Assembly: GCF_034092465.1 (NCBI RefSeq)
Contig: NZ_CP139303.1
Location: forward strand, 1,206,865 to 1,270,864
DNA: 64,000 bases
Direction of reading: 5' to 3'
DNA from: Prochlorococcus sp. MIT 1223
GTDB lineage: Bacteria; Cyanobacteriota; Cyanobacteriia; PCC-6307; Cyanobiaceae
The notes beneath the pieces were generated by a model that was not told the DNA's origin, made no database searches, and saw only the letters and a list, made by a program, of their open reading frames with translations. The number at the start of each line of letters is the position of its first letter. The first letter of the stretch is position 1. Shown here in pieces: positions 45,650-46,714 of the stretch. Both the position numbers and the translations under genes were made by a program.

Positions 45650-45817
45650 TCATTTGATTGTGATAGAGAAAGATATAAGAACGAACACAAATAAGCCTCC
45701 TAAAAGAATAAAAATTCTAGATCCTTTGCTATTACTAGTGTTATCTGAGATCAATTCAATTTCAGGCTCTTTAGCAAATGCGTTAAGACGACCTTCTGAT
45801 TCTTTTGTAACAGTCAT
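45650..45817 (-). CDS. Psb34-like photosystem II assembly protein (short gene)
   Basis: A 55-residue frame (ATG 45817, TGA 45650-45652) in the 320-bp space between sqdB and thiG. It reads TKESEGRLNAFAKEPEIEL near the N-terminus, then about 15 polar residues and one membrane helix (FILLGGLFVFVLISFSI). The EGRLNxFAxEP block and layout match, from memory, Psb34 (Synechocystis Ssl1498), a small PSII assembly protein that binds CP47 in competition with high-light-inducible proteins. The gene has an HLR1-like site 63 bp upstream and lies 59 bp before sqdB. The main alternative is another HLIP-related small protein. Confidence 0.68.
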   Translation of the reverse strand: MTVTKESEGRLNAFAKEPEIELISDNTSNSKGSRIFILLGGLFVFVLISFSITIK

Positions 45818-45879
45818 TAGTCTTATTTTTAGTCTCGGATGCTTGACCTTATGGGCAATTTCTAAATTTTTAAAATTCC

Positions 45880-45897
45880 GTTACTTACCGTTACTAA
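45880..45897 (+). promoter_or_regulatory. HLR1-like direct repeat (possible RpaB site)
   Basis: GTTACTTA-CC-GTTACTAA: two octamers separated by two bases, the arrangement of the HLR1 element ((G/T)TTACA(T/A)(T/A) twice, 2-bp spacer), with T in place of A at position 6 in both. It is 63 bp upstream of the psb34-like start, on the opposite strand to that gene, within the 93-bp gap after thiG. RpaB binds HLR1 and controls high-light genes in cyanobacteria. Confidence 0.5.
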
Positions 45898-45910: not shown

Positions 45911-46714
45911 TTAAGCAGTAACTATTCCATGACTTGGTGAACTGGCACTAGCTTTTTTTCTTTCTTCTAATCTCCCAGCTAAAAAAGCTTGTCTTCCAGC
46001 TTCAGTTGCTTTTTTCATTGCTTCTGCCATTGAAGGAGCATCTTTTGCTAATGCAATAGCACTATTTATTAATACAGCATCTGCACCTAATTCCATAGAT
46101 AGAGCAGCTTCACTAGGGACTCCAATCCCCGCATCAATAATGACCGGTACTTTTGCATTTTCTATAATCAAACAAATATTGGCTTCGTTCCTAATTCCCT
46201 GTGCAGATCCAATTGGTGAACCAAGTGGCATCACTGTTGCACACCCAACTTCCTCAAGTTTTTTTGCTAATAAAGGATCTGCATTTATATATGGAAGTAC
46301 TGTAAAACCTTCTTTTATAAGTTGTTCAGCAGCTTGTAGTGTTCCAAATGGATCAGGAAGTAAATATTTTTCGTCAGGAATAACTTCTAATTTTATGAAA
46401 TTATTATCTTCTTGACCGGCTAATTTTGCCAATTCTCTCCCCATTCTGGCTATTCGAATGGCTTCTTCAGCATTTGAACAACCTGCAGTGTTGGGCAGCA
46501 TCCAATATTTTTTCCAATCAATTGCCTCTAAAAGTCCTTGATGGCTTGACTCCAGTGCTTGAATTCTTCTAATTGCGACAGTGATAATTTCGCATTTGGA
46601 ACTCTCTAGACATTTTTTCATTATTGCTAGATTTTCATATTTCCCTGTTCCAGTAAGTAATCTACTTTTGAAAACCTTGTTGCCGATATTTAACATGTCT
46701 TTTTTGTTGTCCAT
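45911..46714 (-). CDS. thiG: Thiazole synthase
   Basis: A 267-residue TIM-barrel enzyme. The N-terminal [36 protein letters not shown] near residue 74, the phosphate-binding [14 protein letters not shown] near 168 and the [21 protein letters not shown] block are all present. It builds the thiazole phosphate moiety of thiamine. It lies 34 bp downstream of ycf37 on the same strand. Confidence 0.96.

Follow-up and report, generated by a model that had tools for sequence, protein, structure and literature searches.

The window analyzed here, a 64,000-nucleotide stretch of the Prochlorococcus sp. MIT 1223 genome, contains a gene of the ssl1498 family that follows thiG, and the promoter of this gene lies inside the 93-bp gap between it and the 3′ end of thiG (Table 1). 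The product matched NCBIfam NF033486 over positions 1–51 of 53 (42.1 bits, E 5.9e-11). As this score falls below the curated cut-off of 45, the gene is referred to here as psb34-like. Its N-terminal motif, GRLNAFA-EP, is common to the family members (GRLNxFAxEP, invariant columns), and inspection suggested one C-terminal membrane helix. Upstream regions of psb34 were gathered from 88 distinct loci, and psb34 was found behind thiG in 85 of the 88 loci examined. Two assemblies of the same genus (G001 and G002) are incomplete; neither psb34 nor thiG was found in them, and they have no bearing on conservation.

Table 1. Features of the psb34-like locus, in window coordinates.
Feature	Position	Strand	Basis and remarks
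thiG, upstream neighbor	45911..46714	minus	ORF list; tblastn synteny, 66-76% identity; name from sequence recognition
HLR1-like tandem element, two octamers + 2-bp spacer	45880..45897	minus (gene orientation)	sequence; block in 26 aligned promoters; 10-bp period
Core conserved across relatives, GTAACGGTAAGTAACGGAA, two 10-bp units GTAAM-GGWAN	45876..45894	minus	column conservation; R1 match E 2.8e-8
-10 hexamer TAAGGT (TAnnnT class), conserved CCA before it	45846..45851	minus	26-promoter alignment
Predicted transcription start, +/- 2 bases	45839	minus	inferred from -10 box; leader about 22 nt
psb34-like gene (ssl1498 family)	45650..45817	minus	55 aa (55 codons); NF033486, N-terminal motif, place behind thiG

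HLR1, the RpaB-binding element, has the form KTTACAWW-N2-KTTACAWW, that is, (G/T)TTACA(T/A)(T/A) twice. The original prediction placed a related octamer pair before the psb34-like gene, with both octamers departing from HLR1 at position 6 only, and this description proved accurate. On the forward strand, the pair reads GTTACTTA-CC-GTTACTAA and lies 62 bases from the ATG; because the gene is on the minus strand, the element is read in gene orientation as TTAGTAACGGTAAGTAAC(GGAA), also written TTAGTAACGGTAAGTAACGGAA. The match to the consensus is not significant by itself, because the HLR1 pattern is no commoner than expected or than in the reversed control. With up to two mismatches, three matches were found in the window against six expected, and no enrichment of a strict HLR1 regulon was detected in the window's genome (86 matches against 182 for the reversed control). 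The relaxed pattern KTTACWWWNNKTTACWWW, which was fitted after the fact, yielded one match in the window against 0.04 expected. Six matches to GTAAMNNNNNGTAAM occur in the 1.8-Mb genome, and GTAAC is present twice (GTAAC-N5-GTAAC) in the psb34 copy only. Similarly, GTAAMGGNNNGTAAMGG matches exactly at psb34 only in its own genome, and two matches with one mismatch (L107 and L108) lie inside reading frames. As a separate observation, GTAAMNNNNNGTAAM is scarce in the whole genome (G000; 6 against 40 for the reversed control), a scarcity that may stem partly from avoidance of TAA stops.

These counts would suit a chance resemblance, in which an AT-rich gap happens to hold GTTAC twice: the reversed control outnumbers the true HLR1 pattern when two mismatches are allowed, and the pattern had been chosen after the sequence was seen. 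The deciding evidence for a real element is conservation, not the consensus match. An alignment of 26 psb34 promoters on the -10 box, nearly all from the Prochlorococcus group, revealed a conserved 18-bp block, TAAMGGAANGTAACGGAA, at about -55 to -38, whose distance to the -10 box TAAGGT hardly varies. Its flanks are near-random; the upstream sequence is unconserved, the spacer from -37 to -17 is mostly so, and TCCATAAGGTCCGCCGA then follows. The block repeats with a 10-bp period, since its self-identity at lag 10 was 0.55 against 0.29 in shuffles (z 11.6), while lag 11 fell below the shuffled mean (z -1.6). The conserved core extends four bases past the octamer pair on the gene side. In the hexamer, T-12, A-11 and T-7 are invariant or nearly so in the 26 promoters, and the TAnnnT class also occurs in the freshwater and marine Synechococcus sets, where the alignment was anchored on TAnnnT.

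The promoter was further described by R1, a sequence-only model of 63 positions. About 47 of 300 family genomes gave an R1 match to the promoter (E below 2e-4), many of them outside the training set, and the match and psb34 adjoin wherever a separate search had located the gene. Within the window's genome, only the psb34 promoter matches significantly (E 2.8e-8), the next best place having an E of 0.09. Thus, a genuine, evolutionarily conserved promoter element of two 10-base repeats stands upstream of the psb34-like gene, and the predicted tandem element before a Psb34-type gene is upheld by its conservation across the 26 aligned promoters. The persistence of the block at an almost constant distance from the -10 box in deeply diverged lineages with a randomized spacer, and the recovery of held-out genomes by R1 refute a chance origin of the element. 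Coincidence could still account for the HLR1 label, but as a whole this explanation is scarcely credible. RNA structure or a terminator was considered as the nature of the element and rejected (fold z -0.12, no terminator, no Rfam family). Nearer the gene, the GC-rich sequence CCGCCGA at -6 to +1 of psb34 promoters is strongly conserved in Prochlorococcus and degenerate in the window. In E. coli, GC-rich discriminators accompany stringent control.

Most lineages of the Prochlorococcus group keep the element, including most low-light Prochlorococcus lineages. In the main marine Synechococcus group, three RTGAAG units are found in the same register at -75, -65 and -55 (z 10.9). The Cyanobium-type clade retains the -55 unit as GTGAM with a degenerate second unit, and its periodicities are both weak (lag 10 z 3.4, lag 11 z 5.4). 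Three tandem units, GTAAAGGAAAGTAACAGTAAGTAACGGAA, were also observed in a 10-bp register upstream of psb34 at L015. In the ThiG and Psb34 tree, the window's gene groups with L002, L031 and L032 (support 98/87); in these sampled lineages nearest the window, unlike in the window itself, the octamer pair was not found at its normal place. The element is likewise missing from LLI-type genomes. In genus g79, which we take to be LLI-type, psb34 stands behind thiG with one GTAACG that lies near another -10 box, and in genus g17 the psb34-like gene was found elsewhere, away from thiG. Conservation of the octamers in close relatives had been proposed beforehand as a check, and the outcome is divided: they are kept over deep divergence and in most low-light Prochlorococcus, but lost in L002, L031, L032 and LLI-type genomes. 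Since nearby lineages lack it, the element is not essential for psb34. Among the psb34 promoters of 18 other cyanobacterial families, the search for HLR1 returned imperfect HLR1-like scores only. By eye, TGTTAC(A/T)-type sequences are visible shortly before the start at many psb34 genes of other families (L251, L254, L255, L256, L258, L259, L263, L265 and L268), where a -10 box could overlap an HLR1 half-site.

The likeness to HLR1 lies in the tandem direct repeat with K-TTAC cores, a 2-bp spacer and a 10-bp period, the spacing of HLR1 itself, and in a location upstream of the core promoter, where the HLR1 of RpaB-activated photosystem I genes is likewise found. However, position 6, an A in HLR1, is T in both octamers, and the strict consensus is not matched; in the 26 relatives, A never occurs at this position in octamer 1 and does so in octamer 2 in four. 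Further differences are a spacer that is mostly CC, GGAA after the second unit, and the fact that the psb34 element is essentially one recognizable site in the window's genome. Because both octamers here, and octamer 1 throughout the 26 promoters, lack this A, the element is, judged by its sequence, an HLR1-like variant and not a strict HLR1. The proposed HLR1 identity consequently stands for the repeat, the TTAC cores and the placement upstream of the core promoter, and fails at position 6 in both octamers. An exact HLR1 does occur elsewhere in LLI-type Prochlorococcus (L133-L139, L248) and has GTAAAGGAANGTAACGG in common with the psb34 core, but it carries A at position 6 in both octamers and precedes an uncharacterized protein of 85-92 aa instead of psb34. 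Among the PF00504 (Hli-type) loci, a strict HLR1 match was obtained in L103 only, at two mismatches.

Five proteins with an OmpR-type DNA-binding domain are encoded in the genome: RpaB, a second RpaB-type protein, an RpaA-like protein, a PhoB-like protein and a fifth. The names RpaA-like and PhoB-like derive from sequence inspection and family ranking. RpaB itself (L181) scored 385.4 bits against the family cut-off of 330, and the regulator suggested by the original prediction is available as a candidate. The second RpaB-type response regulator (L182; G000:C1:1301434-1301667) passes the same cut-off with 352 bits and is possibly SrrA-like; it or the RpaA-like regulator may recognize similar DNA. 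Direct repeats with a 10-bp period upstream of a good -10 box, without a -35 box, are typical of OmpR-family activators. The psb34 promoter has no recognizable -35 box, and a consensus scan found no sigma-70 -35/-10 promoter there.

On these grounds, we consider it slightly more probable than the reverse that the psb34 element is a tandem operator of an OmpR-family regulator, with RpaB the likeliest candidate, and that this regulator activates psb34 in low light and ceases to do so in high light. RpaB appears the most likely binder from the sequence of the site. The exact HLR1 with the psb34 core in LLI genomes (TATGTAAAGGAATGTAACGG) was counted in favor of RpaB; the departure at position 6, the lack of strict-HLR1 enrichment, the absence in nearby lineages, and the presence of second RpaB-type and RpaA-like regulators in the genome were counted against it. 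A possible, though less probable, alternative is that the same tandem operator serves another OmpR-family binder, either L182 or the clock-output RpaA, so that psb34 would respond to the signal of that protein, such as time of day. Such sharing has precedent, as in PCC 7942 the regulators RpaA and RpaB have promoters in common and compete for them (PMC13421787), and the genome encodes five OmpR-type proteins, of which L182 exceeds the RpaB cut-off. The conserved position-6 departure and the near-uniqueness of the site to psb34 could also signify a different specificity. Nevertheless, nothing ties the site to L182 or RpaA, whereas RpaB is documented to prefer the half-sites and spacing of HLR1, and the exact HLR1 of LLI has the same core. 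We regard it as rather unlikely that the element is an operator of picocyanobacteria confined largely to psb34, with a regulator specificity distinct from HLR1 and possibly bound by the second RpaB-type protein; if so, PSII assembly would be set by its own switch and not by the general RpaB regulon.

Other known factors are disfavored. The core, GTA-N8-TAA, is one base off the NtcA consensus GTA-N8-TAC, but its second half is conserved as TAA(C) and not TAC, and the palindrome is not formed. A PhoB-like regulator (L180) is encoded, but the Pho box consists of 8-bp repeats every 11 bp, a period at variance with the lag scores of the block (lag 10 z 11.6, lag 11 z -1.6). Control by either NtcA or PhoB thus seems very unlikely.

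In the scheme of activation by RpaB, the direct-repeat operator has a 10-bp period of about one helical turn and a predicted location of about -58 to -41 relative to the start, immediately before a -10 promoter (CCATAAGGT) lacking a recognizable -35 box. Two regulator subunits would sit on the repeats in head-to-tail order and assist RNA polymerase in engaging this weak promoter. The transcription start, the binding protein, the sign of the control and the response to light are the parts of this scheme that we infer. RpaB sites at -45 to -66 activate and those at -38 to +23 repress (review PMC13421787). By this position rule, low or growth light would be the condition in which phosphorylated RpaB activates psb34; in high light, RpaB would be dephosphorylated and activation would lapse, with Psb34 falling while the high-light-inducible Hlips rise. 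The original prediction had spoken of a light-stress control site, suggesting high-light induction. The predicted position of the site argues for the opposite sign: as the predicted place is the activating one, psb34 would be expressed in low light and shut off when light is high. This direction fits the rapid loss of Psb34 protein in Synechocystis, where 2 h of high light suffice to make it undetectable, the inverse of HliA/B (PMC9458560).

Light-stress control most likely means that RpaB represses psb34 and releases it in high light, as it does hli genes, so that the gene would be induced by high light. HLR1 near the transcription start does repress hli and nblA genes (PMC6331805, PMC11633204), and Psb34 works with Hlips. 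The scp/hli sites belong to the same element class and serve genes for PSII protection and assembly (PMC6331805), but they are repressing sites 3-13 bp away from the transcription start, whereas the psb34 site is farther upstream and should activate. At its predicted position, it is clear of the repression zone (PMC13421787), there is no -35 box to block, and the Synechocystis protein drops in high light (PMC9458560); repression is accordingly quite improbable.

A close parallel to the proposed RpaB activation of psb34 is Synechocystis atpT, in which RpaB was shown to bind a variant HLR1 (-45 to -60) that drives the gene (PMC9241938). Both cases combine an imperfect HLR1 with a promoter lacking a working -35 element and with positive RpaB action, which for psb34 is predicted. 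The two differ in gene and organism; moreover, the gel-shift binding is that of atpT, whereas the psb34 site is known from sequence, and atpT is regulated mostly by mRNA stability (PMC9241938).

RpaB targets in Prochlorococcus are little known. Among the papers found on RpaB, HLR1 and Psb34, none described a psb34 control site, and no paper was found that names RpaB together with ssl1498. The opposite course of Psb34 and the Hlips would be accounted for by a conserved element of the activator type. Such an element also allows testing, on a single gene, whether streamlined ocean cyanobacteria have retained RpaB control of PSII assembly and why LLI-type lineages have lost it.

Several further observations were made. 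In seven genomes of g79 (L133-L139 at about position 1501; L248:1080-1104), an HLR1-type sequence, exact in several, precedes the uncharacterized protein (LYDPSIGQESLTTVDVVG...), and a conserved GGGCAACCGAACATACTAG is found downstream. At L248, an hli gene lies near the HLR1-type site on the opposite strand. In genus g17, an R1 regulon (L244-L247) was discarded, as the recurring weak matches lie beside glutamyl-tRNA synthetase-like frames and were taken as coding. In the window's genome, a short Hli-like frame with identical flanking frames occurs in two copies about 18 kb apart (L104 and L105; G000:C1 about 1499000 and 1516800). Finally, in freshwater Cyanobium-type genomes (L132 and L141, about position 1501), two GTAACGG units 10 bp apart were observed between hisF and a small membrane protein gene that precedes a ubiE-like methyltransferase gene; similar sequences are present at L130 and L142-L145.
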